Assembly (NCBI GenBank): GCA_017472605.1
Contig: JAFUPV010000041.1
Coordinates: 1-34,106 of the forward strand
DNA: 34,106 nucleotides
DNA from: Lachnospiraceae bacterium
GTDB lineage: Bacteria; Bacillota; Clostridia; Lachnospirales; Lachnospiraceae
Direction of reading: 5' to 3'
Positions 2,165 to 21,795 of this stretch are shown in pieces. The notes under the pieces were generated by a model. It saw only the letters and a program-made list of their open reading frames with translations, was not told where the DNA came from and made no database searches. The position numbers and the translations under genes were made by a program. Each line of letters opens with the position of its first letter. Positions within the stretch are counted from its first letter, which is position 1.

Positions 2165-2219
2165 TCGCTGCAGCGGATGAATTCAGAAGAAACATCCGCT
2201 GCAGCGATATTGTTTTGTT
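2165..2219 (+). terminator. Strong intrinsic terminator
   Basis: A perfect 15-bp stem, TCGCTGCAGCGGATG (2165-2179) with CATCCGCTGCAGCGA (2193-2207), is followed by the T-rich TATTGTTTTGTT. It ends the secreted-protein transcript. Confidence 0.85.
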
Positions 2220-2222
2220 CCT

Positions 2223-2264
2223 GCATCCAGGCGAACGGGCCAGTGACACGTCCGGTCGGATTTT
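2223..2264. repeat. Post-terminator repeat, copy A
   Basis: The segment begins GCATCCAGGCGAAC and ends GGTCGGATTTT. It matches segments at 6909-6950 and 10831-10873 over about 40 nt. The centre can form a short imperfect hairpin (CGAACG/CGTCCG). It lies a few bases after the preceding terminator. Confidence 0.6.
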
Positions 2265-2300
2265 GTATATTCAGGTGAATTTACTTGAACTTGGAGGATT

Positions 2301-6864: not shown

Positions 6865-6902
6865 ATGGAGGATTTGAATTGATCCTCCATGAGCCTTTTT
6901 TT
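6865..6902 (+). terminator. Intrinsic terminator of the epimerase/dehydrogenase operon
   Basis: ATGGAGGAT (6865-6873) pairs with ATCCTCCAT (6882-6890); GAGCC and seven T follow. Confidence 0.9.
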
Positions 6903-6908
6903 GCATAC

Positions 6909-6950
6909 GCATCCAGGCTAACATGCCCGCAATATGTTCGGTCGGATTTC
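6909..6950. repeat. Post-terminator repeat, copy B
   Basis: The segment runs from GCATCCAGGCTAACATG to TTCGGTCGGATTTC. It matches copy A closely at both ends. The centre pairs as AACAT/ATGTT. It begins 7 nt after the terminator T-run. The remaining 6951-7182 holds no gene I can support. Confidence 0.6.
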
Positions 6951-7182
6951 AGCGAACCGCGAGACGGGCGAAAATATTTGTGTAGTCATCCGGTGCACGT
7001 TGTGATAACGGGAGAATTTTGTGAAGCATGTCGTATCTCGTTGCGGAGAATGCCGTCGAGAAGGGATGAAAAACAGAAAAGGCAGAGATTTTATGTCGTA
7101 ATTATTCGATGAATTATGATTGCGCAAATCGATTTTACGAGGTAGAATAGATTTTGCTAATACGCATTTGAGAAAATAATTC

Positions 7183-7229: not shown

Positions 7230-8261
7230 ATGTCAGAGAAGGATGTTGCCGAGAAAACGCTGGAGGCGCACAATGACGTATTTGCGGATATTGTGAATGT
7301 ACTTCTCTTTAACGGCGAACAGGTTGTACATGAGGATGAACTGGAGGATGCGCTGCCGCGGTCTATCTATAAGGCAGCGGGAAAAACACATGAACAGGAA
7401 CGGGATGTGGCGAAGTTTTGGAAGATGAACGGAATCCGCATTGCGTTCTGCGGGTTTGAAAACCAGACAAAAGCAGATGCGGATATGCCACTGCGCGTCA
7501 TCGGGTATGATGGAGCAGCATATCGCGCGCAGATGCAGCATACAAAAGCAAAAAAGAAGAACGATACATCACAAAAGGCTGCTGTGGGGGAGGCCGCAGT
7601 AACTGCAGAAGCCAGATGCAATAAGATACGGAAGAAAAAGCGGAGAGAGGCAGTCATTCGTTACCCGGTTGTCACGCTGGTTTTGTATTTCGGGTATGAG
7701 CGAAGATGGAATCAGGCAAAGTCGCTGCTTGAGCGGCTTGTTGTTCCCGAACATATGAAACCGTATGTGAGTGATTACCGAATCAATGTATTTGAGATTG
7801 CCTTTTTGACGGATGAACAGGTTGCCATGTTTCAGAGTGATTTCAGGGTAGTAGCAGATTACTTTGTTCAGATGAGAAAGAACAGAGAATATGTACCAAC
7901 AGCGGATGAAGTGGAGCATGTGGGAGAGATAATGGAATTGATGGCGGCAGTGACTGGGGATAATCGGTTTGAGAAGCAGATGAATCTTCCGGTCCGGAAA
8001 GGAGACAAAGTGAGAATTAATTGTCAGGTCATGGATCAGGCAGAAGCTGCGGGGATCAGCAAAGGGATGAAGCGTGGGATGAAGCGTGGAATGAAACGTG
8101 GAATGAAGCGTGGGCTATCCAGAGGAAGATTTTTGGCAATGTGTGAACTTGTGGACGATGGCCAGATTTCCATTGAGGAAGGCGCAAGACGGGTCAATAT
8201 GACGGAAACAGAGTTTCGTGAGCAACTGGAGCGTATGAAGGAGGAGAAGGCGCAGGCCTGA
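7230..8261 (+). CDS. Rpn-family recombination-promoting nuclease / PD-(D/E)XK putative transposase
   Basis: 343 residues from ATG 7230; a weak AAAGGG precedes it, and the promoter position fixes this start. The N-terminal ~170 residues match the Rpn/PD-(D/E)XK pattern common in Lachnospiraceae: a DALPRSIYKAAGK block, the IRIAFCGFENQT strand with the ExQ signature (Glu77, Gln79), and YPVVTLVLYFGYERRW. Rpn proteins are DNA endonucleases linked to recA-independent recombination; no transposition is shown here and I see no terminal inverted repeats. Near residues 278-297 a basic Lys-Arg-Gly-Met unit is repeated four times, encoded by a 12-nt minisatellite. A second, truncated relative lies at 13297-13629. 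The gene stands alone between its own promoter and terminator. Confidence 0.85.
   Translation: MSEKDVAEKTLEAHNDVFADIVNVLLFNGEQVVHEDELEDALPRSIYKAAGKTHEQERDVAKFWKMNGIRIAFCGFENQTKADADMPLRVIGYDGAAYRAQMQHTKAKKKNDTSQKAAVGEAAVTAEARCNKIRKKKRREAVIRYPVVTLVLYFGYERRWNQAKSLLERLVVPEHMKPYVSDYRINVFEIAFLTDEQVAMFQSDFRVVADYFVQMRKNREYVPTADEVEHVGEIMELMAAVTGDNRFEKQMNLPVRKGDKVRINCQVMDQAEAAGISKGMKRGMKRGMKRGMKRGLSRGRFLAMCELVDDGQISIEEGARRVNMTETEFREQLERMKEEKAQA
8061..8118 (+). repeat. 12-nt tandem repeat inside the Rpn-family gene
   Basis: A unit like AAGCGTGGGATG is repeated about four times with one or two base changes, encoding Lys-Arg-Gly-Met. The 12-nt unit keeps the frame if copy number changes. Confidence 0.85.
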
Positions 8262-9787: not shown

Positions 9788-9831
9788 TGACCCGCAAAAA
9801 TAGTTCACCTTTGGCTATTTTTAGCGGGTCA
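9788..9831 (+). terminator. Long hairpin between UroD-like and pyridoxamine kinase genes
   Basis: TGACCCGC-AAAAATAG (9788-9803) pairs with CTATTTTT-A-GCGGGTCA (9815-9831) with a single bulged A: 16 bp around an 11-nt loop. There is no long T-run after it, only AAAATG. It may terminate the upstream transcript through its U-rich right arm, or act on the downstream promoter, whose -10 starts 9 nt later. Confidence 0.6.
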
Positions 9832-9839
9832 AAAATGTG

Positions 9840-9845
9840 TATAAT
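9840..9845 (+). promoter_or_regulatory. -10 box of the pyridoxamine kinase promoter
   Basis: A perfect TATAAT. No good -35 exists at 17 nt (ATTTTT inside the hairpin arm), so the promoter may need an activator or be weak. The predicted start, near 9852, is at the first base or two of the leader element. Confidence 0.5.
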
Positions 9846-9854
9846 ATACATAAA

Positions 9855-9887
9855 GCAGTGAGCCGCGCGAGGGCGCTTGCGCACTCA
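9855..9887 (+). ncRNA. Structured leader element, copy 1 (GCAGTGAGCC … GCGCTTGCGC)
   Basis: It starts GCAGTGAGCC and carries GCG-CTTG-CGC, a CUUG tetraloop hairpin extended by GAG/CTC. The same element lies at the same distance (9 nt) behind the -10 box of the AAA-ATPase gene at 19124. It fills most of the untranslated leader of the pyridoxamine kinase gene. A regulatory or RNA-stability role is inferred from position and structure only. Confidence 0.55.
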
Positions 9888-9914
9888 TTTGATACATATT
9901 TGGAGGATAAATTA

Positions 9915-10751
9915 ATGAAAAGAATCGTTACAATTCAGGATATTTCATGTGTGGGAAAGTGCTCTCTGACGGTAGCTCTTCCGATTATTTCCGCAATGGG
10001 AGTTGAAGCATCCATCATCCCGACTGCGGTTCTTTCGACTCATACGATGTTCAAGAACTTTACCTGCAAGGATCTGACGGATCAGATTAAGCCGATCACC
10101 GCTCATTGGAAGAGTGAAGGGATTGATTTTGGTGCGATTTATACCGGATATCTTGGATCCTTTGAGCAGATTGATCTGATGAAAGAGCTCTTTGATGAGT
10201 TTCGGACGGAAGATACCATTGTGTTTGTGGATCCGGCAATGGCGGACAATGGAAAACTGTATGCTGCATTTGATGAGGCGTTTGCAAAGCACATGGCAAC
10301 TTTGTGCGCGAAAGCCGATATTATTGTGCCCAATATCACCGAGGCTGCCTATATGACAGGAATGGAGTATAAGACAGTTTATGATGAGGCTTATGTGAAG
10401 GAACTGCTTCAAAAGCTGGCAGCTCTTGGTGCGAAGATCAGCATCCTGACCGGGGTTAGCTTTGAAGAGGGAAAGACCGGCGTAATGGGCTATGACAGGA
10501 TGAAAGACGAGTATTTCTATTATTCTCATGAGCGGCTGAATGTCAGCTATCATGGAACCGGAGACGTTTTCTCCAGTACCTGTATCGGCGCCATGATGAA
10601 TGGTCTGAACTGGAAAGAAGCAGTTCAGGTGGCAGCTGATTATACGAAGGAATGCATCCGCGTGACATTGGAGGACCCGGCAGAGCCATGGTATGGTGTG
10701 AATTTTGAACAGGCAATTCCGTATCTGCTGAAACAGCTTGGAAAGATGTAA
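9915..10751 (+). CDS. Pyridoxamine/pyridoxal kinase (PfkB/ribokinase fold)
   Basis: 278 residues. Start ATG 9915 lies 8 nt after GGAGG (9902-9906). It opens with RIVTIQDISCVGKCSLTVALPI, the substrate-binding block of bacterial pyridoxamine kinases. It ends with the ribokinase-superfamily anion-hole motif HGTGDVF, in which Asp217 is the catalytic base. It phosphorylates pyridoxal, pyridoxine or pyridoxamine with ATP in the vitamin B6 salvage route in the cytoplasm. Length is normal for the family. It stands alone, with a structured leader upstream and a strong bidirectional-looking terminator downstream. Confidence 0.92.
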   Translation: MKRIVTIQDISCVGKCSLTVALPIISAMGVEASIIPTAVLSTHTMFKNFTCKDLTDQIKPITAHWKSEGIDFGAIYTGYLGSFEQIDLMKELFDEFRTEDTIVFVDPAMADNGKLYAAFDEAFAKHMATLCAKADIIVPNITEAAYMTGMEYKTVYDEAYVKELLQKLAALGAKISILTGVSFEEGKTGVMGYDRMKDEYFYYSHERLNVSYHGTGDVFSSTCIGAMMNGLNWKEAVQVAADYTKECIRVTLEDPAEPWYGVNFEQAIPYLLKQLGKM

Positions 10752-10769
10752 AAACTGTATGAAAAAAAG

Positions 10770-10819
10770 GACGCGAGAGAGATGCCATAATGAAATGGCA
10801 TTCGGCTCGCGTCTTTTTT
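10770..10819. terminator. Terminator after pyridoxamine kinase, probably bidirectional
   Basis: GACGCGAG (10770-10777) pairs with CTCGCGTC (10806-10813), with an inner ATGCCAT/ATGGCAT stem. Six T follow on the plus strand and seven A precede it, so it can also serve the convergent flavodiiron gene. Confidence 0.9.
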
Positions 10820-10830
10820 CTGGAGTGTTC

Positions 10831-10873
10831 ATGGATTCAGGCGAACATGCCAGTGACACATTCAATCGAACTG
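10831..10873. repeat. Post-terminator repeat, copy C
   Basis: The segment includes ATTCAGGCGAACATGCCAGT and GACACATTCAATCGAACTG. It is related to copies A and B and again sits just after a terminator. It ends 2 nt before the stop codon of the convergent flavodiiron gene. Confidence 0.55.
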
Positions 10874-10874
10874 T

Positions 10875-12188
10875 TTATTGGTTTACTTCCATGAAATGAT
10901 CTGCGGACTGTCTGCACAGCGGACATGTAAATCCTTCCGGAATGGAATCACCTTCATACACATAACCGCAGATATCGCAGACGAAGCGTTTTCCAGTCGG
11001 TGTCTCCTGGTTTTTCGGCTCGGCAGACTCAGCCTGTGCACATAATTCGTCTGCCAGCGCATCCAGCTGCGCACTGCTTTCGTCATTGAGTGTGGACATG
11101 ATTTTCACACTGGTTTCTGCAAAGGTCAGATTTTTGCTCTTTTCCAGCATACTCTTCATTACCTTTGCAGCCATTGGCGCCCAGCAGCCGTTTTCGATGA
11201 ATGCAACGGTGCGGCTGCTGAAATTGCGCTCTGTCAGGTGGTTGATGAATTCACGCATGAATGGGAAAATATCAGCGTTGTAGGTGGTGGTAGCGAGAAC
11301 GAGTTTGCTGTAGCGGAACGCATCCTCCACCGCTTCTGCCATGTCACATCGTGCCAGATCGTTTACAACTACCTTCGGACATCCCTTTGTCCTCAGTGTT
11401 TCGGCGAGCTGCATCACGGCCTTTCTGGTATTTCCGTAAATGGAAGTATATGCGATGACAATGCCTTCTTCTTCCGGCTGATAACTGGACCAGGTGTGGT
11501 ATCGGTCAAGATAGTACCCAAGATTTTCCGACAAAGCAGGTCCGTGAAGGGGGCAGATGATCCGGATGTCCAAATTTGCCGCTTTCTTCAGCAGGCTTTG
11601 TACCTGTGCGCCGTATTTGCCCACGATTCCGATGTAATAGCGCCTTGCTTCGCATGTCCAGTCCTCTTCTGCATCAAGGGCGCCGAATTTGCCAAAACCG
11701 TCCGCAGAAAACAGGACTTTGTCGGTGCTGTCATAGGTGACAATGACTTCCGGCCAGTGAACCATGGGCGCGGTAACGAAGGTCAGGTGATGGGTTCCGA
11801 GAGAAAGAGTATCCCCTTCGCCGACAATCATCTGGCGGTCTGCAAAATTCGTTCCGAAGAAATTCTTCATCATAGCGAAGGCTTTGCTGGAAGCCACGAG
11901 TTTTGCTTCTGGATATGCAGCAGCGAAATTGGCAATGTTTGCGGAATGGTCCGGCTCCATGTGCTGAATGATCAGATAATCCGGTTTTCTTCCGTTTAGT
12001 GCATTGGCGGTGTTTTCCATCCACTCGTCGGTGAAATTGGCATCCACGGTGTCAATGACGGCAATTTTCTCGTCTAAAATCAGGTAGGAATTGTAAGACA
12101 TGCCGTTGGGGACGTGATATTGTCCCTCAAACAGGTCAATTTTGTGGTCGTTGACGCCGATATATTGAATGGTATCTGTAATAGTCAT
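10875..12188 (-). CDS. Flavodiiron protein with C-terminal rubredoxin domain
   Basis: 437 residues. Start ATG 12188 lies 9 nt after GGAG. There are three domains. Residues 1-~245 form a metallo-beta-lactamase-like diiron core with His76, Glu78, Asp80 and His81 (HMEPDH) and a later PLHGP ligand. Residues ~250-395 form a flavodoxin domain with the FMN loop TSIYGNTRKA. Residues ~403-437 form a rubredoxin with CDICGY and CPLC knuckles. Flavodiiron proteins reduce O2 to water or NO to N2O in the cytoplasm of anaerobes. The fused rubredoxin acts as electron donor to FMN, so this is a flavorubredoxin-type architecture. It is divergent from a flavodoxin-ferredoxin gene, which may share the redox-stress theme. 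Confidence 0.95.
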   Translation of the reverse strand: MTITDTIQYIGVNDHKIDLFEGQYHVPNGMSYNSYLILDEKIAVIDTVDANFTDEWMENTANALNGRKPDYLIIQHMEPDHSANIANFAAAYPEAKLVASSKAFAMMKNFFGTNFADRQMIVGEGDTLSLGTHHLTFVTAPMVHWPEVIVTYDSTDKVLFSADGFGKFGALDAEEDWTCEARRYYIGIVGKYGAQVQSLLKKAANLDIRIICPLHGPALSENLGYYLDRYHTWSSYQPEEEGIVIAYTSIYGNTRKAVMQLAETLRTKGCPKVVVNDLARCDMAEAVEDAFRYSKLVLATTTYNADIFPFMREFINHLTERNFSSRTVAFIENGCWAPMAAKVMKSMLEKSKNLTFAETSVKIMSTLNDESSAQLDALADELCAQAESAEPKNQETPTGKRFVCDICGYVYEGDSIPEGFTCPLCRQSADHFMEVNQ

Positions 12189-12224
12189 CTTGCTTGTCTC
12201 CTTTAAAGTTATCTGTCTTTATTC

Positions 12225-12254
12225 AGTATATCACATTTCATGATATCTCATCAA
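12225..12254 (-). promoter_or_regulatory. Promoter of the flavodiiron gene (minus strand)
   Basis: On the minus strand, -35 TTGATG (12254-12249), 18-nt spacer, -10 TATACT (12230-12225). The leader to ATG 12188 is about 30 nt. Confidence 0.65.
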
Positions 12255-12313
12255 GGAGAAAAGCGATCTGCCCGTCCAGCACGGATTGTTGGTCAGCTGA
12301 TTTTGTGCTTTAT

Positions 12314-12342
12314 TTGACGGAGAAAGTCAAGTGTGGTATGAT
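12314..12342 (+). promoter_or_regulatory. Promoter of the EFR1 gene
   Basis: -35 TTGACG (12314-12319), 17-nt spacer, -10 TATGAT (12337-12342). The leader to ATG 12409 is about 60 nt. Confidence 0.75.
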
Positions 12343-12408
12343 AAAAGAAAAGAAGCGGTCCTGCGCTGCGGGTAACTTATCGATTCATAAAGGGAACAGG
12401 AGGCAAAT

Positions 12409-13191
12409 ATGAAACTTTATCAGATTACATTCAGCCCAACCGGAGGCACAGAAAACGTGGCGTCTGCGCTTGCATCTGCCTGGGAGATGCCAGCAGCGAG
12501 GATTAATTTACTGAAAAAACAGGAAGAGGAATACCGGATTTACCTGAGCCCGGAAGACGTGTGTATCGTAGCGGTGCCGGCATATGGCGGACGGGTTCCG
12601 GCAGCAGCGGCTGTGAATCTGAAGCGGCTGAAGGGAAATGGAGCAAGAGCGATTCCGGTTGCCGTGTTTGGAAATCGTAAAATTGATGATACATTGGCGG
12701 AGCTTCAGGATTTGCTGGAAGAATCCGGTTTTGTGTGCATTGCAGGAGTGGAAGCTGCAGCGGAGCATTCGCTTGTCCGTCAATTTGGAAAAGGAAGACC
12801 GGATGCTGCGGATCGGGCAGAGCTGAAGAATTTTGCGGCGAAGATAAAATCGATGCTGGAAGATGAAAAGGCCTGGAAAGAGAGTGCACAAGCGCTGAAA
12901 CTTCCGGGAAATCGTCCATACCGGGAAGCAGGAGGCGCGGCATCTGTTCCGATTGTAACAGATACCTGTGTTGAATGCGGTTTGTGCAGCCGGGAATGTC
13001 CGGTTGAGGCAATCGCGGCAGATGATCCGAAAAAGACGGATAAAGAGCGGTGTATGTTGTGCATGCATTGCGAAGCCGTCTGTCCAATGAATGCGCGAAT
13101 GCTTCCAAAGGAGATGGTCGATGGTCTGAGGCAGAGGCTGAAAGATGCATGTGAAGGAAGAAAAGAGAACCGGCTGTATTTAGAGACGTGA
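12409..13191 (+). CDS. EFR1-type flavodoxin/ferredoxin fusion protein
   Basis: 260 residues. Start ATG 12409 follows AGGAGG. The N-terminal ~160 residues are flavodoxin-like, with the phosphate-loop-like FSPTGGTENVA (residues ~8-18) and the PAYGGRVP loop near residue 60. The C-terminus carries two [4Fe-4S] motifs, CVECGLCSRECP and CMLCMHCEAVCP. This is the layout of the EFR1 family: cytoplasmic electron carriers of anaerobes with no firmly known partner. It has its own promoter, divergent from the flavodiiron gene about 220 bp away. A weak AT-rich hairpin follows the stop codon and overlaps the next promoter. Confidence 0.9.
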   Translation: MKLYQITFSPTGGTENVASALASAWEMPAARINLLKKQEEEYRIYLSPEDVCIVAVPAYGGRVPAAAAVNLKRLKGNGARAIPVAVFGNRKIDDTLAELQDLLEESGFVCIAGVEAAAEHSLVRQFGKGRPDAADRAELKNFAAKIKSMLEDEKAWKESAQALKLPGNRPYREAGGAASVPIVTDTCVECGLCSRECPVEAIAADDPKKTDKERCMLCMHCEAVCPMNARMLPKEMVDGLRQRLKDACEGRKENRLYLET

Positions 13192-13198
13192 ATTTCTA

Positions 13199-13227
13199 TT
13201 GACTGCAAAGTGAAATAGAAATATAAT
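13199..13227 (+). promoter_or_regulatory. Near-consensus promoter upstream of a truncated gene
   Basis: -35 TTGACT (13199-13204), 17-nt spacer, -10 TATAAT (13222-13227). It overlaps a hairpin, ATTTCTATT (13192-13200) with AATAGAAAT (13214-13222). Only the Rpn-like remnant lies downstream, so this is a working-looking promoter left in front of a broken gene. Confidence 0.7.
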
Positions 13228-13296
13228 AAAATTACAGGTGGAAAAAGATACATACTGACATTTGCTGTACAAAAGATAACCGCAGAAATCCTGTAA

Positions 13297-13629
13297 GAAA
13301 ATGGAAAGGCAAATGGAGCAGAGAATCCGATCCGACTGGCAATTGATCAGTGCATTCACGAAAATGTGCTAAGTGAATATCTGCCCAGAAAAGCGAGTGA
13401 GGTGAAGAATATGCTGATAGCGGAATATGATTACCAGACTGATATTGAAGTGCAGCGGGAAGAGGCATGGGAGGATGGTCACGCAGAAGGAAAAGCTGTA
13501 GGGATCATTTCTACAGGAAAGAAGTTTTGCATTCCCAAAGAGCAGGTTCTGTCTGAACTCATGAGTCAGTTGGGTGTGGATGAAAACGCAGCGAAGCTGC
13601 TGTTGGACCGATACTGGGATATGAAATAA
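13297..13629 (+). pseudogene. 5'-truncated Rpn-like / PD-(D/E)XK nuclease gene (C-terminal part)
   Basis: An open stretch from just after a TAA (13294-13296) to TAA 13627-13629. From 13324 it encodes a pattern typical of the C-terminal half of Lachnospiraceae Rpn-like proteins: NPIRLAIDQCIHENVLSEYL, then ASEVKNMLIAEYDY, QREEAWEDGHAEGKAVG and a final helical repeat. The nuclease half is missing and the 5' part is interrupted by stops. A short product could still start at ATG 13411, which follows GAGG, but no full-length protein is possible. A strong promoter (13199-13227) and a perfect terminator (13681-13726) still bracket it, so the loss looks recent. Confidence 0.75.
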
Positions 13630-13680
13630 GTGCTGGGATGATTTGGCGGGGAAGATAATCAGGTATCGATTTTGACTGGT

Positions 13681-13726
13681 GCTGTATGGAATAACGATGA
13701 ACGTGGTTATTCCATACAGCTTTTTT
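13681..13726 (+). terminator. Strong intrinsic terminator
   Basis: A perfect 15-bp stem, GCTGTATGGAATAAC with GTTATTCCATACAGC, is followed by six T. On the minus strand there is no T-run, so it serves the plus-strand remnant. Confidence 0.9.
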
Positions 13727-13742
13727 GTTTGGATGAAAACGG

Positions 13743-14873
13743 TCAGAACTTCGGAACAACAACCGCTTCGCCGTCTCTCATTGCGGATTCATGGGCACAG
13801 ATTCCTGCAGCTGTGATGTTCGCACCAAGTACTTCATCGATCCACGGTTTTCTTCCTTCAATCAGGCTGCTGACAAATTCATGTACCAGATGGGCGTGGG
13901 CTCCGTGGTGGCCGGCTCCGGCACCTTTTTTCAGAGAATCCTGCGGATTCAGCGGATCATAGTTGCCGCCGACGGTAAACGGCCACAGTTCTTCCGGAAG
14001 CAGATGGTAGTAGTTGGGCATCTGGACTACCTGCACATCAGCGCGTCCGCCGCGGGAACCGTCGGCAGCCGGAATTGCAGTCGTGATGTAAGGGGAGTCA
14101 TGGTCGGCGAATCCCCACTCAAAGCAGGAATCGGAACCGTAGATAAACATGCCTTCCTGATAAACACGGGCAGTCTCGAAGAGAGAACGTGTGGCTTCGC
14201 CCTTCAGACCATTTTCAAATTCAAAAATTGCTGTTTCTACCGGGAAGGGATTGCCGTATTGACGGCTCATTTCCTCATCCATGGTACCGGAACCGAAGCA
14301 GTGAACCTTGCAGATCCGGGAATCGGAAAGCGCAACCATTGGCGCAATCGCATGAGTGCCGTACCACATGGGCGGCAGACCGAGCCAGTAGGAAGGCCAG
14401 TTGACCATGTCCTGATAGTGGGAACCGCGCAGAAACTGAATTTTGCCGAATTTTCCATCCGCTTTCATCTGGGAAGCATAGAAGAACTGGTAAGTATAAA
14501 GCGTCGTTTCCATCATCATGTAAGTTTTTCCCGACTTGCGGATGGCGGCAAAAATCCGACGGATGTCCTCCAGCGAAGTTGCCATGGGAACGGTGCAGGC
14601 ACAATGCTTTCCGGCTTCCAGAACGGCAACCGTCTGATCGGCATGGAGCGGGATTGGCGTTACCAGATGAACGGCATCAATAGACGGGTCGGCAAGAATT
14701 GCTTCAAAACTGTCGGCGCATTTGACATTGCCGGTATCGTCTGCCGCTTTTTTTAGAAGATCTGCGTTGGTATCAAAAAGAATTAATTCATTTACATTCG
14801 GGTGAGCGCGGTAGATTTTTGCAAAAGCACCGCCGAAACCGAGACCGACAAGGGCAATATTTTGTTTTTTCAT
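13743..14873 (-). CDS. Gfo/Idh/MocA-fold protein of the GH109-like branch
   Basis: 376 residues. Start ATG 14873 lies 10 nt after GGAGG (14888-14884). The N-terminus is a Rossmann domain (ALVGLGFGGAFA, residues 7-18). The usual catalytic EKP is replaced by Thr94-Val95-Pro96 in CTVPMATS, so the normal dehydrogenase lysine is absent. GH109 NAD-dependent glycosidases also lack it (EVPAA in the same place). Further GH109-like marks are MMMETTLY (Glu122) and YGTHAIAP, with Tyr171 and His174 in the Y-x-x-H arrangement. This suggests a bound NAD cofactor and glycoside cleavage through transient C3 oxidation, or a related elimination. Alternatively it is an uncharacterised oxidoreductase of the same branch. 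No signal peptide, so cytoplasmic. Monocistronic. Confidence 0.85.
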   Translation of the reverse strand: MKKQNIALVGLGFGGAFAKIYRAHPNVNELILFDTNADLLKKAADDTGNVKCADSFEAILADPSIDAVHLVTPIPLHADQTVAVLEAGKHCACTVPMATSLEDIRRIFAAIRKSGKTYMMMETTLYTYQFFYASQMKADGKFGKIQFLRGSHYQDMVNWPSYWLGLPPMWYGTHAIAPMVALSDSRICKVHCFGSGTMDEEMSRQYGNPFPVETAIFEFENGLKGEATRSLFETARVYQEGMFIYGSDSCFEWGFADHDSPYITTAIPAADGSRGGRADVQVVQMPNYYHLLPEELWPFTVGGNYDPLNPQDSLKKGAGAGHHGAHAHLVHEFVSSLIEGRKPWIDEVLGANITAAGICAHESAMRDGEAVVVPKF

Positions 14874-14997
14874 AGCTGGGAAACCTCCAATTTAATTTCA
14901 GGTACATTCTGTGGACCGGTTATAAGCCGCTTTCGGGACGAAAATAGAATACATAAACATCCCGCAACATGCATTTCTGGTTTGTTGCCATGATACC

Positions 14998-15026
14998 ATC
15001 ATAACAGCGGACCCCCTTTTCAACAA
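14998..15026 (-). promoter_or_regulatory. Promoter of the GH109-like gene (minus strand)
   Basis: On the minus strand, -35 TTGTTG (15026-15021), 17-nt spacer, -10 TATGAT (15003-14998). The leader to ATG 14873 is about 120 nt and holds no clear structure. Confidence 0.6.
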
Positions 15027-15134
15027 GGAAAAAACATACAGAAAATTAGAAAAAATTTTTGTGAACGAATTGAAGGGGAAAGAAAACCGAGACTTACGAA
15101 ATTAACTGAAATTTTTTGTATAGAAATCAGGAAA

Positions 15135-15194
15135 AACACGTGTTACAATTCAGATAGGAATGAAACTGTGAACATGACAGAAGAAAACGTTTCC
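15135..15194 (+). promoter_or_regulatory. Promoter/operator region of the broken GH2 gene
   Basis: An extended -10, TGTTACAAT (15141-15149), overlaps the perfect palindrome AACACGTGTT (15135-15144), a likely repressor or activator site. About 35 nt further, GAAAACGTTTCC (15183-15194) contains AAACGTTT and fits most of the CcpA cre consensus on the minus strand (CAGGAAACGTTTTCT, two flank mismatches). That would suit carbon catabolite repression by roadblock. No good -35 is visible. The rest of 15027-15278 holds no gene. Confidence 0.45.
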
Positions 15195-15278
15195 TGCTGC
15201 AGATGGCTTCTTTCAGCGATGATGAGCGTATTGGCAGCACTGGTGCGTGACTGTTGAGAACGATGGAGGACATAAGAT

Positions 15279-17624
15279 ATGATGAAGAAGCAGAATCTGG
15301 ACAAAAACTGGAAATTTTTCCTCGGCAATTTGTCCCCGACAGACGAAACCGAGGGCTGGGGCGGCGCAAAAGCAAGAGCCTACAGTTTTGGCGCGGCGGC
15401 GGAGGATCTTTGCGATGAGAAATGGCGCACAGTTGAATTTATATCAACGAATATCTGCTTGCCAGTCAGAAGAGCGGGTACACAAGCTTCGTCTATGACA
15501 TTACGGACTTCGTAAACATCGGCGGCGAGAATCTGCTGGCGATCCGTGTGGATGCCACGGGACGGGAAGGCTGGTGGTATGAAGGCGGCGGAATCTACCG
15601 CCATGTCTGGCTGGAATATCGGGATTGCATCCACATTGCTCCGGATGGCGTTTATGTGGCGGCAAAGCCGCTTTTGGCAATCGGCGGGATGGCATCTGCA
15701 CCTGCAGCGGCAGGAGCAGATGTGCGGCTCCAGGAAGCAGGAACTGCTGCACAAAGCCAGGAAGCAGGGATCGCCGTGCAGCCGGGAGAAGCAGTCGCAG
15801 CTTCTGTCCGGATTCGTACAGAAGTGAGAAGCCGCAAGCTGGAAGCAGAAATCGTACAGGTAATTTCCACCGTTGAAGATGTCGATGGAAATGCCGTCGC
15901 CAAAACGGAAAGCAGCCTGACGGCAAATCCGTGGGAGGATACTATCTGTGAGCAGGAGATATCCATGGAGCAGGCGATGCTGTGGAGTCTGGAATCCCCC
16001 TATTTATATAAACTGAGAATAAAAATCCTTGTGAACAGAACTGAGACAGATTCCTGTGTTACTTCCTTTGGCGTCCGCTCCATCCGTTTTGATGCGGATC
16101 AGGGCTTCTTCCTCAATGAGAAGCATGTGAAGATCAAGGGTCTGTGCTGCCACCACGACCATGCCGGTGTGGGAATTGCGGTGCCGGATTCGGTTCAGGA
16201 ATACCGGATTGCAAAGATGAAGGAAATGGGAGCGAATGCGTATCGTACCGCCCACTACCCGCCTACAAGAGAGCTGCTTGACATTTGCGATCGGATGGGA
16301 GTTCTTGTGTTTGACGAGACAAGACGGATGTCTGCTGCGCCTCAGGACCTGGAGTGTATTCAGGCGATGGTAAGGCGCGACCGCAACCATCCCTGCGTTT
16401 TTCTGTGGGGTATCGGCAACGAGGAGATCTTTGCCCAGCACCGCCCTGAGATGGCAAGAGCGACCGTGACCATGCGCATGGCGGTCCGGAAGCTGGATGA
16501 TACAAGACCGATTACGTCAGCTGTTGTCTGCTGGGACGGAAAGCAGCGGTTTGACAATGCAGCGATGTATGTGCCGGTGACAAAGGAACTGGATGTGATG
16601 GGATTCAATTACTGCCAGACTGCATGGGACGATTATCATGAGCGCATGCCGAAGCAGCCGATTATCATCACAGAGGCTTCTGCAAACAGCGGAACAAGAG
16701 GCTGCTATGAAACGGACGAAGCAAGAGGTATGTACTATGTGATGGATCCGGACAATGAAACCAAGTGTAAAAACGGAAAGAAGGCGGTGAAGAGGAACAA
16801 CGGTGAGAACCAGTGGAAAGCCTGTGATGAGCGTCCCTATCTGGCAGGTATTTTCCTCTGGACAGGAATTGATTACAGGGGAGAGCCGACACCGTCAGCA
16901 TGGCCTGCCGTAAACTCCCAGTTTGGTATTCTGGATTCCTGCGGTTTCAGAAAAGACAATTTCTATTATTATAGAAGCTGGTGGACCGATGAACCGAACT
17001 TCACATTTTCCCTCACTGGAATGCGCCGGTAGAAGTAGGAAAAACAGTTTCTGTTTATTGTTATAGTAACATGGATGAAGTGGAGCTGCTTGTCAACGGA
17101 AAGAGCTATGGCAGAAAAACCATGGAGAAAAACTGGTATCTGGGATGGGATGAAGTTGTTTATGAGCCGGGTACGCTGACGGCACAGGGATACCGCAATG
17201 GTGAGCTGGTGCTGACGGAGTCTGTGGAGACAACAGGAGCGCCGTATCAGATTGTTCTGGAACCGTATCAGGATGCGGTTGGGGCAGATGATACAGCCAT
17301 CGTTCAGGTCAGTGTCCGTGATGAAGCAGGGCGGATTGTTCCCAATGCGGACAACGAGATCCGTTTCAACGTATCCGGAGCAGGCAGTTTTCTTGGAACA
17401 GGAAACGGAAATCCGGGAAGCCATGAGTCGGATTTGCTTCCGGTGAGAAGGGTATTTAATGGTCTTGGTCAGCTGCTGGTAAGAAGCAGCCGGCAGGAGA
17501 CGGATGGGGTGATTACTGTGACAGCGGTATCGCCGGGGCTGCATGGCGCATCGGTTTCGGTCGGTGTGAAAGCGGCTTGCGCTGGTTTCCTTCTCTCTCC
17601 GATGAAGAAGAACAGGCTGCCTGA
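15279..17624 (+). pseudogene. Broken glycoside hydrolase family 2 gene (beta-galactosidase-like)
   Basis: Start ATG 15279 lies 8 nt after GGAGGA. Three frames together read as one GH2 enzyme with a DUF4982-like C-terminus. Frame 1 (15279 to ~15437) encodes the N-terminus (NLDKNWKFFLG…WGGAKA). Frame 2 (~15439-17032) resumes at YINEYLLASQKSGYTSFVYD and holds the whole catalytic barrel, with acid/base Glu at 16421 (GNEE) and nucleophile Glu at 16673 (ITEAS). The missing part between them is the middle of the sugar-binding jelly roll, about 70-85 codons. At ~16995-17000 a one-base loss shifts the expected HIFPHWN into another frame. Frame 3 (~17000 on) completes the C-terminus without a stop and runs into GH43; the tail frame SDEEEQAA-TGA ends at 17624. 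A 27-nt repeat (15731-15794) lies in a linker. It is probably non-functional. Confidence 0.85.
15731..15794 (+). repeat. 27-nt tandem repeat inside the GH2 pseudogene
   Basis: Units start CAGGAAGCAG (15731), CAGGAAGCAG (15758) and GGAGAAGCAG (15785), encoding Gln-Glu-Ala-Gly-type repeats in an Ala-rich stretch after the jelly-roll domain, where homologues normally have a short linker. Confidence 0.7.
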
Positions 17625-17694
17625 TTTAATAGAAAGAGATTTTAATAAAAAGATATTTCAAGAAAAGAAGACTTTAAGAAAAGGAGATTTCATC

Positions 17695-19044
17695 ATGCCC
17701 AATCCATACCTTCCAACCTGGGAATATATCCCTGACGGCGAGTCCCGTGTATTCGGTGACCGCGTCTATGTGTACGGCTCCCACGACAAAGCCGGTTCTG
17801 ACAGCTTCTGTGACTATGTGTTAAAGTGCTGGAGTGCGCCGCTGACCAATCTGAACCAGTGGACCTGTCATGGAGACATCTTCCACACCCGTGCTGACCG
17901 GGATCATAGATCTGACACGGACTGGACCGGTGAGAACAATCAGCTTTACGCGCCGGATGTGGTGGAAAAGGACGGAAAATACTATTTATATGCATATATT
18001 ATCGGTGCGAAGGGATGTGTCGCTGTCAGCGACCGGCCGGAAGGACCGTTTACTCTGCTGTCAAACTATCAGTATACCATATCGGATGAAATCTGCTGCA
18101 ACGGCTGGTTCATCGATCCCGGTGTGCTTGTGGACGATGACGGCAGAGTTTTTATTTACTGCGGCTATGAGCGTTCCTTCATGGCAGAGATCAATGGGGA
18201 CAACATGTATGAGGTACTGGACGGAACCTGCATCGAGCACATCATTCCCTGTGAGATTACAGAGGACGGCGGATTTGACGCAAAGGAGAAAATCTTCTTT
18301 GAGGCGGCGTCACTGCGCAAAGTAAAGGATACCTATTATCTGATCTATTCGCCGAAGCGGGGAAGCCGTCTTGCCTATGCAACTTCGGACAAGCCAACCG
18401 GACCGTTCACCTATCGCGGTTATCTGGTTGACAATGGCGTGGACTATCCCGGCGGCAACAACCATGGCTCCATTGCCTGCATCAACGGTCAGTGGTACAT
18501 TTTTTACCATCGGATGACAAACAATTCCATCATGTCCCGCCGTGCATGCGTAGAGCGGATTGAAATGCGGGAGGATGGAACCATCTTGCCGGTGGAAATG
18601 ACCTCTCTGGGATTTGAGGAATCGCTGAATCCCTATCAGACAACGCCTGCTGACATTGCCTGTGTCCTGAAAGGATCTGCTTTCATCACAGAGCGGAATC
18701 CATTTGAGCGGGTGGTCACCAACATCACAGACAAAACGGTGATCGGTTATAAATATTTTGACTTTGGCGAAGACTTCTCCAGTCAAACCATGGAATTTGC
18801 CGCGCAGATCAATGGCTTTGGCGCGGACTGCACACTGCATATCCGTCTGGATGGGGAGGACGGAGAGGAAATCGGTTCCTGCCGGATTGGACATGACGGC
18901 GGTGTGGTTCAGACTGTAGTAACCAACGTGACCGGACGCCACGCGGTTTTCTTTACCGTCAGCACAGACTACAGCGGCTGGACGGCGGAGTTCTTCAAGG
19001 GAAGACAGCTGTTTGAGTTGAAGGCGTTTGTTTTCATGAAATAA
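17695..19044 (+). CDS. Glycoside hydrolase family 43 (beta-xylosidase / alpha-L-arabinofuranosidase type)
   Basis: 449 residues from ATG 17695, which follows AAGGAG (17681-17686) with an 8-nt spacer. The same frame is open upstream into the broken GH2 gene, but this ribosome site and the canonical PNPYLPTWEY start mark a separate gene. The five-bladed propeller triad is visible: Asp14 (IPDG), Asp141 (WFIDPG) and Glu203 (FFEAAS). The C-terminal ~120 residues (after ~330) look like a CBM6-type beta-sandwich. There is no signal peptide, so it probably works in the cytoplasm on imported oligosaccharides, releasing arabinose or xylose from pectin or xylan side chains. It was probably co-transcribed with the GH2 gene. 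Confidence 0.9.
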   Translation: MPNPYLPTWEYIPDGESRVFGDRVYVYGSHDKAGSDSFCDYVLKCWSAPLTNLNQWTCHGDIFHTRADRDHRSDTDWTGENNQLYAPDVVEKDGKYYLYAYIIGAKGCVAVSDRPEGPFTLLSNYQYTISDEICCNGWFIDPGVLVDDDGRVFIYCGYERSFMAEINGDNMYEVLDGTCIEHIIPCEITEDGGFDAKEKIFFEAASLRKVKDTYYLIYSPKRGSRLAYATSDKPTGPFTYRGYLVDNGVDYPGGNNHGSIACINGQWYIFYHRMTNNSIMSRRACVERIEMREDGTILPVEMTSLGFEESLNPYQTTPADIACVLKGSAFITERNPFERVVTNITDKTVIGYKYFDFGEDFSSQTMEFAAQINGFGADCTLHIRLDGEDGEEIGSCRIGHDGGVVQTVVTNVTGRHAVFFTVSTDYSGWTAEFFKGRQLFELKAFVFMK

Positions 19045-19085
19045 GCCGGTACAGAAATATGCGGCCGAAGACACCTTCCCCCATA

Positions 19086-19114
19086 TTGAACAAACCCCAC
19101 AAATATGATAAAAT
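19086..19114 (+). promoter_or_regulatory. Promoter of the AAA-ATPase/PD-(D/E)XK gene
   Basis: -35 TTGAAC (19086-19091), 17-nt spacer, -10 TAAAAT (19109-19114). The transcript would begin near 19121, at the front edge of the leader repeat. Confidence 0.75.
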
Positions 19115-19123
19115 GCTCGTGAA

Positions 19124-19226
19124 GCAGTGAGCCAAGTGGGGGCGCTTGCGCACACATTTGGCGAACGCCACGGGCCGAAACGGAGTTTCGGAATGGTGAA
19201 GCAGTGAGCCAAGTGGTGCGCTTGCA
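19124..19226 (+). ncRNA. Structured leader: element copies 2 and 3 with intervening hairpin
   Basis: Copy 2 (19124-19162) starts GCAGTGAGCC. It folds as GCCAAGTG (19131-19138) with CATTTGGC (19155-19162), enclosing GCG-CTTG-CGC. CCGAAAC-GGA-GTTTCGG (19175-19191) follows. A degenerate copy 3 starts GCAGTGAGCC at 19201 and ends at the ribosome site. The element begins 9 nt after the -10 box, exactly as at the pyridoxamine kinase gene (9855). Nearly the whole 120-nt leader is structured. Confidence 0.6.
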
Positions 19227-19239
19227 GAAAGGAGGAGTT

Positions 19240-20823
19240 ATGGGCATTTACTTAAATCCGGGAAATGACAGTTTTGAAAGAGCATTGAATTCCAGAATTT
19301 ATGTGGATAAATCGGAATTGATTGCCTGTACAAATGATGTGCTTGGCTCGGAACAGTGTAACCTCTGCGTGAGCCGACCGCGCAGATTTGGAAAATCAAT
19401 GGCGGCGAATATGCTGGCTGCCTACTATTCTCGCGGTTGTGAGTCGGGAGAACTGTTTCAAAGTCTGAAAGTCAGCAAAAATCCTTCTTATCAAATGCAT
19501 TTGAATCAACATGATGTGATTTACATGAATGTACAGCAGTTTTTGCGAAGTGCAAAAGAACCGGAAAATTTGGTGAACTGTATGGAACAGAAGGTAGTGG
19601 ATGAAATCCGGGAAATCTATGGAAGCTGTTTCGGTCAGGAGGTTCGCAGTCTGCCGGATGCTCTGACTGCGGTTTTCTCAAAAGCAATTCAGCCAACGAA
19701 GGGATTTATATTCATTATTGATGAATGGGATTGCGTGTTCAGAGAAGCCAGAGATCATGTGGAGGCTCAAAAAGCATATCTGAATTTTCTGCGAGATCTG
19801 CTGAAAGACCGTTCTTATGTTCAGCTGGCATATATGACGGGAATTCTTCCGATTAAGAAATATGGAACGCATTCTGCTTTGAATATTTTTCAGGAGTATT
19901 CCATGACAAATGCAGATGTTTTGGCAGAGTACATGGGCTTCACGGAATCGGAAGTGAAAAATTTGTGTGAACGGTTTGAAAAACCGTTTGATGAAGTTCA
20001 AAAATGGTATGATGGGTACCAGTTGGCAGATGATCTTCATATTTATAATCCCAAATCCGTCATTGATGGAATGCTTAGCAGAAGATTGAAAAGCTTCTGG
20101 ACAGGAACGGAAACCTACGAGGCGCTTCAGATTTACATTGATCTGGATTATGATGGACTGAAATCGGAAATCATCTCCATGCTTGGAGGGGGAATATGCA
20201 AAACAGATGTAGGTTCCTTTCAGAATGACATGACAACCTTTAAGAGTCGGGATGATGTATTCACTCTGTTGGTTCATCTTGGATATCTTGGATATCATGA
20301 GATGGAGCAGACTGTTTTTATTCCAAATGAGGAAGTGAGACTGGAGTTTATCCGGGCCTTGAAGAATGGGAAAAGACCGGAACTGGTGAAGGCAATTCTT
20401 ACGTCTGACCAGCTTTTGGAAGCAACACTGACAATGGATGAGAAAAAAGTTGCTGCATTGATTGATGAGGTACACAGTGCAACGACAACACCGTTGATGT
20501 ATAATGATGAAGAGTCGCTGAGAAGTGTGATCAAGCTTGCTTATTACAGTTCAAAAGATGATTATTATGCAATTCAGGAACTTCCTTCCGGAGTTGGCTA
20601 TGCGGATATTGTTTTTTTGCCGAGACGCGGCTCAGAGAAACCTGCGCTTGTTGTGGAACTGAAATGGGATAAGAAAGCGCAGGGAGCGATTGCACAGATA
20701 AAAAAACAGAAATATGTGCAGGCGATCGAGAACTATGGAGGTCCAGTTATTTTGGCAGGTATCTGTTATGATAAGAATACGAAAAAACATGAGTGCGTGA
20801 TTGAAACATATCAGAAAGAGTAG
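19240..20823 (+). CDS. AAA-ATPase-like protein with C-terminal PD-(D/E)XK nuclease domain
   Basis: 527 residues from ATG 19240, which follows AAAGGAGG (19228-19235). An upstream GTG (19204) lies in the repeat and is rejected. The N-terminal ATPase has the family's Walker A variant RPRRFGKSM (near residues 46-54) and Walker B FIFIIDEWD (Asp161, Glu162). The C-terminus has a PD-(D/E)XK core: Asp456 in YADIVF, then Glu473-Leu-Lys475 in VVELKW, followed by a long helix. This matches the AAA-ATPase_like plus PD-(D/E)XK pairing that is highly amplified in gut Clostridia and Bacteroidetes. The function is not established; mobile-element or defence roles have been suggested for relatives. It sits inside a carbohydrate island to which it is not obviously related. 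Its stop lies 9 bp from the convergent AraC stop. Confidence 0.88.
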   Translation: MGIYLNPGNDSFERALNSRIYVDKSELIACTNDVLGSEQCNLCVSRPRRFGKSMAANMLAAYYSRGCESGELFQSLKVSKNPSYQMHLNQHDVIYMNVQQFLRSAKEPENLVNCMEQKVVDEIREIYGSCFGQEVRSLPDALTAVFSKAIQPTKGFIFIIDEWDCVFREARDHVEAQKAYLNFLRDLLKDRSYVQLAYMTGILPIKKYGTHSALNIFQEYSMTNADVLAEYMGFTESEVKNLCERFEKPFDEVQKWYDGYQLADDLHIYNPKSVIDGMLSRRLKSFWTGTETYEALQIYIDLDYDGLKSEIISMLGGGICKTDVGSFQNDMTTFKSRDDVFTLLVHLGYLGYHEMEQTVFIPNEEVRLEFIRALKNGKRPELVKAILTSDQLLEATLTMDEKKVAALIDEVHSATTTPLMYNDEESLRSVIKLAYYSSKDDYYAIQELPSGVGYADIVFLPRRGSEKPALVVELKWDKKAQGAIAQIKKQKYVQAIENYGGPVILAGICYDKNTKKHECVIETYQKE

Positions 20824-20832
20824 AGGATAAAA

Positions 20833-21795
20833 TCAATACAGCAGCAGCTGCGCCTTCCGATATGCTGACGGACTCATCCCAAACTGCCGGTGAAAACAGC
20901 GGCTGAAATACAGAGAGTCGGAATATCCCAGCTGTTCGCTGATTTCCGTAACCGATAACAGCGTGGATTTAAGCATCTTACAAGCCGCGTTCATGCGCAC
21001 CTGCGCATGGTACTGCTGCATGGTAAGGTGCTTTTCTTTTTTAAAGACTGCCGCAAGATGCTTGTAGCTCAGAAAAAAGTGCTGCTCCAGGACTGCGGCG
21101 GAAAATGGCTCACTGAGGTGGGAATCCAGAAACAGACAGATTTGATCGGAACGGGACAGCTGCTGCGTTTTGGAAGGAGATTCCTGGCAGAAGGAGATTT
21201 TCGTCAGTAACAGATGAAAGAGCGCATTCGCTTTCAGGCGTTCGGAAACCTGATCCGAGTGAAAACAGTCAATGATTTCTGTCATGGAGGATTCAGGACG
21301 CATATTAGCCGGACAGGAAGTAAATTTCGGGACAGAAACGACGGCTGCTCTTGTATCTGCGGGAACGCCGTCAATGGCCGGCAAGACAGGAGAGGTGAGA
21401 ATGCCATTGGCCGGCAAAACAGGGGAGGCGAGAATGCCACTGGCCGGCAAAACAGGAGCAACGAGGACGCCATTGGTCGGTAAAACTGAAGAGGCGGAAG
21501 TGTCAATGGAAGCGGACTGCGCATCAGCCAGAAAATGGACATAGTACCACTGAGTTCCTTTGGAAATCTGTTTTTTTCCGTAATGATGGATGCCGCGTCT
21601 CAGAAACAGCAGCTGTCCCGGCGCGATATCATAGTCGGTATCTTCCTCGGTAACGTAGATGTGACCGCTGATCACATAGATCATCACATCGTAAAGAAAG
21701 GTACGGTCCGCGTGAAAAAACGGTTCCTGAGCTGTGTAGAGATCGCATCCGGTGATGACGGGCATGATTTGACTGGATAAAAGTATTTCGTTCAA
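20833..21795 (-). CDS. AraC-family regulator with an expanded repeat linker
   Basis: 320 residues. The start is TTG 21795, 6 nt after GGAGG (21806-21802); the first ATG (residue 11) has no ribosome site. The N-terminal cupin half (FLYDVMIYVISGHIYVTEED, GQLLFLRRGIHHYG) is followed by an inserted linker at ~105-145, made of an 11-residue unit like VLPANGILTSP repeated about 3.6 times. The C-terminal ~100 residues hold the two AraC helix-turn-helix motifs (FFLSYKHLAAVFKKEK and LGYSDSLYFSRCFHRQFG). It is divergent from the GH127 gene with about 130 bp between them, so it probably controls arabinofuranoside use. Usual members are ~280 residues; the linker accounts for the excess. Confidence 0.92.
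   Translation of the reverse strand: MNEILLSSQIMPVITGCDLYTAQEPFFHADRTFLYDVMIYVISGHIYVTEEDTDYDIAPGQLLFLRRGIHHYGKKQISKGTQWYYVHFLADAQSASIDTSASSVLPTNGVLVAPVLPASGILASPVLPANGILTSPVLPAIDGVPADTRAAVVSVPKFTSCPANMRPESSMTEIIDCFHSDQVSERLKANALFHLLLTKISFCQESPSKTQQLSRSDQICLFLDSHLSEPFSAAVLEQHFFLSYKHLAAVFKKEKHLTMQQYHAQVRMNAACKMLKSTLLSVTEISEQLGYSDSLYFSRCFHRQFGMSPSAYRKAQLLLY
21375..21494. repeat. 33-nt tandem repeat in the AraC linker
   Basis: Units start at 21375, 21408, 21441 and 21474 (TGGCCGGCAA-type cores, the last TGGTCGGTAA), spaced exactly 33 nt, about 3.6 copies. The unit keeps the reading frame, so copy number could vary without destroying the regulator. Confidence 0.9.

Follow-up and report, generated by a model that had tools for sequence, protein, structure and literature searches.

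We propose that two genes of a Lachnospiraceae bacterium carry, immediately behind their promoters, copies of a short DNA hairpin that moves within this bacterial family. We consider it probable that the element is a non-autonomous, single-strand-type mobile hairpin with TTTATT, a T-run, or TATAAT as its left target, so that its fixed distance from a promoter reflects target choice. Such a hairpin would insert in a single orientation, with a short target rich in T and A immediately on its 5ʹ side, in an IS200/IS605-like manner, mobilized in trans by a putative transposase, and its subfamilies would differ in their left targets: TTTATT, terminator T-runs, or an extended −10 box, TGNTATAAT. At the two genes in the window (the whole analyzed stretch of 34,106 nucleotides), the −10 box would have been the target, with the hairpin starting 9 nt behind it (9–10 nt at ten loci of the host genome), and the inserted hairpin would become the 5ʹ end of the mRNA.

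The first-pass annotation had described a structured leader at the same distance behind two −10 boxes, and this spacing was confirmed at both sites: GCAGTGAGCC begins at 9855, 9 nt behind TATAAT at 9840–9845, and GCAGTGAGCC begins again at 19124, 9 nt behind TAAAAT at 19109–19114. The features of the two sites are as follows.

9840–9845, + strand: TATAAT, the −10 hexamer preceding copy 1 (pattern match G000:C12:9840), 9 nt from the element
9855–9891, + strand: copy 1 of the element, with 0 mismatches to the shared pattern
9915–10751, + strand: pyridoxamine kinase gene behind copy 1 (NF005491, 308 bits against a cut-off of 231; PF08543)
19086–19114, + strand: site resembling a promoter, TTGAAC-17-TAAAAT, its −10 preceded by TG (promoter scan)
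19124–19169, + strand: copy 2, complete first hairpin, P1 (cmsearch 72.5 bits, E 3.8e-16; copy 2 is among the six sequences behind the model)
19170–19200, + strand: copy 2, second hairpin (CCGAAAC at 19175–19181 with GTTTCGG at 19185–19191), plus the lead of the next unit (folding)
19201–19227, + strand: incomplete tandem copy, 77 nt (one unit) past 19124, running up to AAAGGAGG
19240–20823, + strand: AAA-ATPase_like/PDDEXK_9 gene behind copy 2 (PF09820, PF08011; a search of NCBIfam gave no match)

We read the TATAAT at 9840–9845 as the left target of copy 1. This copy has lost its right part, with a broken outer stem and no second hairpin by folding, and positions 9864–9891 score 28.5 bits (E 0.00125, cmsearch). 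The sites are 79% identical to each other across the 52 nt that run from the −10 through CATTTG, and only the second (19124) has a −35 by the rule of the promoter scan. The flanking stems of the earlier description are present as named, GAG/CTC at 9869–9871/9884–9886 and GCCAAGTG/CATTTGGC at 19131–19138/19155–19162. The third copy described at 19201 is also present and reaches AAAGGAGG, but it is not an independent site, lying exactly one 77-nt unit past the second; the same spacing was seen among three copies on contig C50 of the host genome. The −10 of the pyridoxamine kinase gene is immediately preceded, at 9789–9830, by an inverted repeat, GACCCGCAAAAATAG/CTATTTTTAGCGGGTC, with one bulged base, on which the terminator scan made no call on either strand. 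The window also holds tandem repeats in or near reading frames, at 21372–21503 (33 nt, four copies) and 8052–8111 (12 nt, several copies).

The repeating unit consists of one conserved, mismatched hairpin (P1) and a second, variable hairpin. Seven full units were aligned, and a covariance model of the 46-nt P1 was built from six of them. These six rows, not fitted to the structure, already showed two-sided changes at 5 of 16 pairs, with 97.9% of cells paired. Across 113 matches (87 distinct), 13 of 16 pairs had two-sided changes and 92.0% of cells were paired, in an alignment that leans towards the structure as it was fitted to it; the pairing values were reached by 0 of 500 shuffles, and sliding the partners destroyed the signal. 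One pair of the stem is almost always G.T (in 79 of 87 rows), and when G.T and A.C cells were tried as a strand test, with one near-constant G.T pair excluded, they stood at 31 to 18. The P1 hairpin and its covariation are real. A covariance search, as the first-pass annotation had suggested, yielded a covarying hairpin with matches across the host genome and other Lachnospiraceae genomes.

The cmsearch run that scored copies 1 and 2 covered 150 of 424 candidates. In the host genome there were 50 matches at E ≤ 0.01; G002, from the same genus, had three matches, and the model search of G001 gave none. Across the Lachnospiraceae, the model found P1 in 64 of 299 genomes at E ≤ 1e-4, with at most 20 candidates scored per genome so that copy counts are lower bounds. 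A consensus scan of named genomes added at least 120 stretches, and the hosts among the matches listed include Blautia, Dorea, Muricomes, Acetatifactor, Parablautia, Lacrimispora, Sellimonas, and Mediterraneibacter, among others.

Most host copies lie away from promoters. The loci fetched were matches up to an E of about 0.05, and counts left out L014 and L031, each the opposite end of an array that collapsed at a contig edge, as well as inner tandem copies. Among the 42 loci examined, 10 lie behind a −10 box and 18 directly adjoin a terminator. A hairpin with a T-run adjoins 18 of the 32 non-promoter copies; the rate at 484 control positions was 2.7%, and the reversed test gave 1 of 32. The other 14 copies failed the terminator test, and chance may account for the weakest matches among the 32. 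The lead of the terminator-type copies resembles TTTACGCGA, placed behind the T-run. By crude gene calling, a same-strand gene lies upstream of 28 of 33 such copies, a count that includes L061, whose context looks like the interior of a gene and which was left out of the 32-locus test; by eye, three terminator-type copies lie behind apparent tRNA genes. Another repeat family, of the GCATCCAGGCGAACGTGCC..GACACGTTCGGTCGGAT type, has three copies in the window (2216–2268, 6902–6954, and 10826–10878), and by eye its relatives flank the terminator-type element, immediately on the left side in L022, L025, and L049 and behind the element in L037.

Next to these host copies stands a common form in other genomes, represented here by copies chosen by an exact P1 string. 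Here TTTATT is followed by CCCGCGAGCAACGAGCC, with TTTATT exact at 77 of 100 loci. The left boundary is sharp: in 78 distinct rows there is scarcely any base preference up to −14, followed by TTTATT/CCCGCGA. The right end, TTTGA(C/T), was found within 300 nt at 81 of 100 loci, and the internally deleted copies L201, L217, and L237 keep a TTTGACT end. A terminator is present at 27 of 100 loci vs 4.3% of 513 controls, and a −10 box at the corresponding place was found at none of the 100. Relative to neighboring genes, the common form occurs in both orientations (27 ++, 28 −−, 16 −+, 13 +−, and 3 one-sided; n = 87). The common form has subterminal hairpins, lacks terminal inverted repeats, and is inserted in a set orientation behind its short target, on the 3ʹ side. 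We considered and rejected a MITE, as terminal inverted repeats and target duplication are both absent. By eye, the copies in L083, L086, and L206 lie just before an excisionase-like gene of a Tn916-like element, which is a possible vehicle between species.

Comparison with sister species revealed insertion sites. One common-form copy in G263 reads TTTATT-(CCCGCG...TTTGACT)-TCAAAC, and the site is uninterrupted in G302 (TTTATTTCAAAC, 95% identity) and G301 (TTTATTTTAAAC, 86%); relative to these empty sites the insertion is precise, with no target duplication. A second common-form locus is filled in G263 and G301 and seemingly empty in G308, at 71% identity. Among −10-type copies, one between genes named by eye as PhoU-like and response-regulator genes is present in G385 and absent from G409, where the empty site is the stop codon of the upstream gene, TTATAG, and a full TATAAT is lacking; G069, from the same genus, has a different sequence upstream of this locus. 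The −10 of the G385 copy was therefore at least partly the end of a gene before insertion, and, since TATAAT is only partial in G409, some of this −10 may come from the element itself. The foot of the hairpin lies 7 nt (to GCA) from both TTTATT and the T-run, and 9–10 nt from the −10, a register that is off by 2–3 nt in the −10 form, with the foot CG again 2–3 nt from the motif. Because the G409 site is a gene end, and because TTTATT, the T-run, and TATAAT share a register left of the foot, we read the −10 as a probable target rather than as part of the element. The fixed distance would then be a matter of target choice, as the −10 occupies the place of the TTTATT or T-run target in other copies. 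In the −10 class, the −10 is constant while the bases between it and P1 vary by locus, and a single guide-target rule does not explain a varied spacer beside a constant −10.

These results bear on the earlier preference for an RNA leader over repeat insertion, which is not supported: 32 of the 42 host loci are away from promoters, and the empty sites reflect insertion of DNA. The finding named as counting against a leader, copies lying mostly away from promoters or randomly in both orientations and without covariation, was borne out in part, in that copies are mostly away from promoters and the common form occurs in both orientations, but host copies are orientation-locked and covariation is strong. 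The fixed distance itself recurs at ten host loci and in other genera.

We then examined the −10-type copies across genera. At the ten host loci, TAWAAT precedes the element by 9 nt (seven loci) or 10 nt (three loci), a spacing expected at about 0.1% per site, and the reversed-pattern control gave 0 in the host genome. The pattern matched 24 of 397 genomes, and the reversed-pattern control gave 4 matches in 4 genomes. Twelve matches, each in its own genome (G359, G172, G211, G338, G126, G105, G039, G137, G103, G131, G368, and G213), were excluded by eye as chance; in the ten that were searched, all but G368 and G213, P1 was absent at E ≤ 10. This selection by eye left 37 loci in 12 genomes and 12 genera, comprising the 10 host loci and 27 in 11 other genomes. 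The model was run on nine locus representatives from other genomes: it recovered P1 in seven at E ≤ 0.1, the best at 1.3e-5, and the copies in G233 and at G066:C15, with no P1 match at that threshold, were kept by eye. The −10-type copies of other genera are, judging by their sequences, diverged. In G072, the one genome of its genus, all six copies end with TCATGRTATAAT, placing an extended −10 in an arm of the second hairpin exactly 92 nt from the left TATAAT. The same genome (L404–L423) carries many copies of a second, unrelated hairpin repeat, TATAATGAGCACAGCGC...GATAACATGATATAAT, which has a TATAAT...TATAAT layout too and forms 82-nt tandem units in L412/L417.

Several explanations compete with a mobile DNA hairpin. 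A cis-acting leader RNA family, in which the 5ʹ-end hairpin regulates or stabilizes the mRNA, for example by blocking 5ʹ-end-dependent decay, and has either spread by duplication or been captured from a mobile repeat, seems to us unlikely, though a leader-RNA role is possible, if unproven. It fits the fixed distance behind the −10 at 37 loci in 12 genomes, 30 of which have an extended −10 (TGN before the −10) compared with 425 of 4,177 (10.2%) other TAWAAT in the retrieved DNA. With +1 assumed at the seventh base behind the −10, folding puts the first paired base no more than 6 nt away at 30 of the 37 loci (median 3), and known 5ʹ-stabilizing hairpins have paired bases similarly near the 5ʹ end. 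A same-strand frame with a ribosome-site-like motif follows 33 of 37 copies in a crude scan. The glgB leaders of G385 and G409 are orthologous, and a long stem in them shows concerted change of its two arms between alike flanks, which fits selection for structure as well, although conversion between copies or template switching within the palindrome could also produce such paired changes. Against a leader family, the same hairpin also occurs on the 3ʹ side of terminators and, in either orientation, at TTTATT, and another orthologous leader is a full element in G409 but a shrunken remnant in G385. Folding gives modest z-scores, with a median of −1.5 and 9 of 37 below −2, and the genes behind nine host loci are unrelated: they include those for a LytTR regulator, glycoside hydrolase-like proteins, kinases, an Rpn-type protein, a flavodoxin-like protein, and others, with no obvious common function (all named by eye except two with domain matches, pyridoxamine kinase and AAA-ATPase_like/PDDEXK_9). 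Moreover, the conserved P0 CG pair would lie upstream of the expected start, which is also why retroposition from a transcript started at the −10 was set aside.

It is more doubtful still that the element is a putative mobile promoter, bringing its own −10 and spreading as promoter plus leader. The bracketing of all six G072 copies by TATAAT, 92 nt apart, such that the element ends in an extended −10, and the missing full TATAAT at the G409 empty site would suit this explanation; by eye, however, nothing shared is apparent left of the −10 beyond TGN and host copies lack a right-hand TATAAT, and the TTTATT form has no −10 there. To chance, in the form of two promoters with similar start regions, we give almost no credence. 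The 10-mer, which has three exact copies in the window, does occur at chance level when up to 2 mismatches are allowed (31 found vs 29.2 expected), but the shared pattern at 0 mismatches, the cmsearch scores, and the covariation of P1 refute chance, and the spread of the family and the recurring placement behind a −10 speak against it too. Within the preferred reading of a mobile DNA hairpin, we tentatively raise a further step, which is possible but short of probable: one lineage would insert on the coding strand at an extended −10 melted by RNA polymerase, its right end would rebuild the −10 in some hosts, and the insertion would keep the gene on while planting a structured 5ʹ leader, with some leaders kept by selection. 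This suggestion comes from the right-end extended −10 in G072, through which a gene would keep a −10 beside its old 5ʹ region, and from the TATAAT...TATAAT layout of the second G072 repeat.

We also looked for a mobilizing enzyme. A search of the host genome for Y1_Tnp (PF01797) gave no match, and Y1 occurs in 37 of the 64 P1-positive genomes vs 174 of 299 overall, showing no association. At 57 Y1 loci tested, which are part of the Y1 matches and include one false match (L306), there was no P1 and no sequence similarity to the element. G040 encodes one 252-aa protein named by eye as RAYT-like, and P1 is absent from its locus; a 267-aa “Y1” match in G285 was rejected as a weak false match to a protein that is AraC-type by eye. 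No gene-bearing, autonomous version was recognized among 82 copies, 63 of which have the right end within 300 nt; in the remaining 19, frames were inspected by eye alone. A transposase partner was thus not found by Y1 profile search, co-occurrence, Y1 loci, or similarity.

Among known systems, the element resembles non-autonomous IS200/IS605 derivatives in that it has hairpins near both ends, lacks target duplication as well as terminal inverted repeats, always faces the same way behind (3ʹ of) a short T-rich target, and has a conserved right-end pentamer, TTGAC, the right cleavage site of ISDra2. It differs in that a parent element with these ends was not found and that one subfamily seems to target a −10 box. 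As no Y1 (HUH) transposase with matching ends was found in the host genome or at the 57 Y1 loci tested, we do not file it as an IS200/IS605 member but as an element that would work alike. BOX and RUP are Gram-positive hairpin repeats in the 5ʹ and 3ʹ regions of unrelated genes, with BOX being modular; by description, the element is like them a hairpin repeat beside unrelated genes, both 5ʹ and 3ʹ, and unlike them in having no inverted-repeat ends. RUP is named in PMC3733652. REP/REPIN sequences with RAYT (TnpA_REP), as described in two papers (PMC3733652, PMC8266576), are likewise short, high-copy, extragenic hairpins with conserved mismatches, often transcribed and presumed to be mobilized in trans as single strands. 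The defining mark of a REP is the tetranucleotide GTAG, or CGTC, at the foot of its hairpin (PMC3733652). The element lacks GTAG/CGTC, having GCAG, GCAA, or ACAA in nearly all listed copies; it has no linked RAYT, its host has no Y1 gene, no copy lies beside the tested Y1 genes, and it forms two-hairpin units, often in tandem, with definite left targets. Group II (IIC) introns have a similar placement 3ʹ of terminators, and no Rfam group II match suggestive of an intron remnant was found among 6 loci (E up to 5) or 14 loci (E up to 10).

Finally, we asked whether the family is already known. At gathering thresholds, Rfam 15 matched only a tRNA in the window; it gave nothing for 6 element loci at E up to 5, and for 14 loci at E up to 10 it gave one weak overlap, Ms_IGR-8 in L084 (19.8 bits vs a threshold of 44, E 5), which we read as chance. 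The element had no match in phage and plasmid records; the copy beside the excisionase-like gene, used as a query, hit 3 plasmid records, each of which matched less than 80% of its length. One consensus string was absent from the searched literature, another was present solely in eight papers titled on other subjects, and no title in the literature search described this repeat, which is apparently uncatalogued. The suggestion of an undescribed family therefore stands insofar as a covarying hairpin lies below every Rfam threshold, while its identity as an RNA leader is not supported. Thus a mobile repeat that is common in one of the major bacterial families of the gut seems to be uncatalogued. 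If −10 targeting is true for one lineage, the element would be a natural machine that equips many unrelated genes with structured leaders, and it would show how covariation can point to a “leader RNA family” that is in fact mobile DNA.
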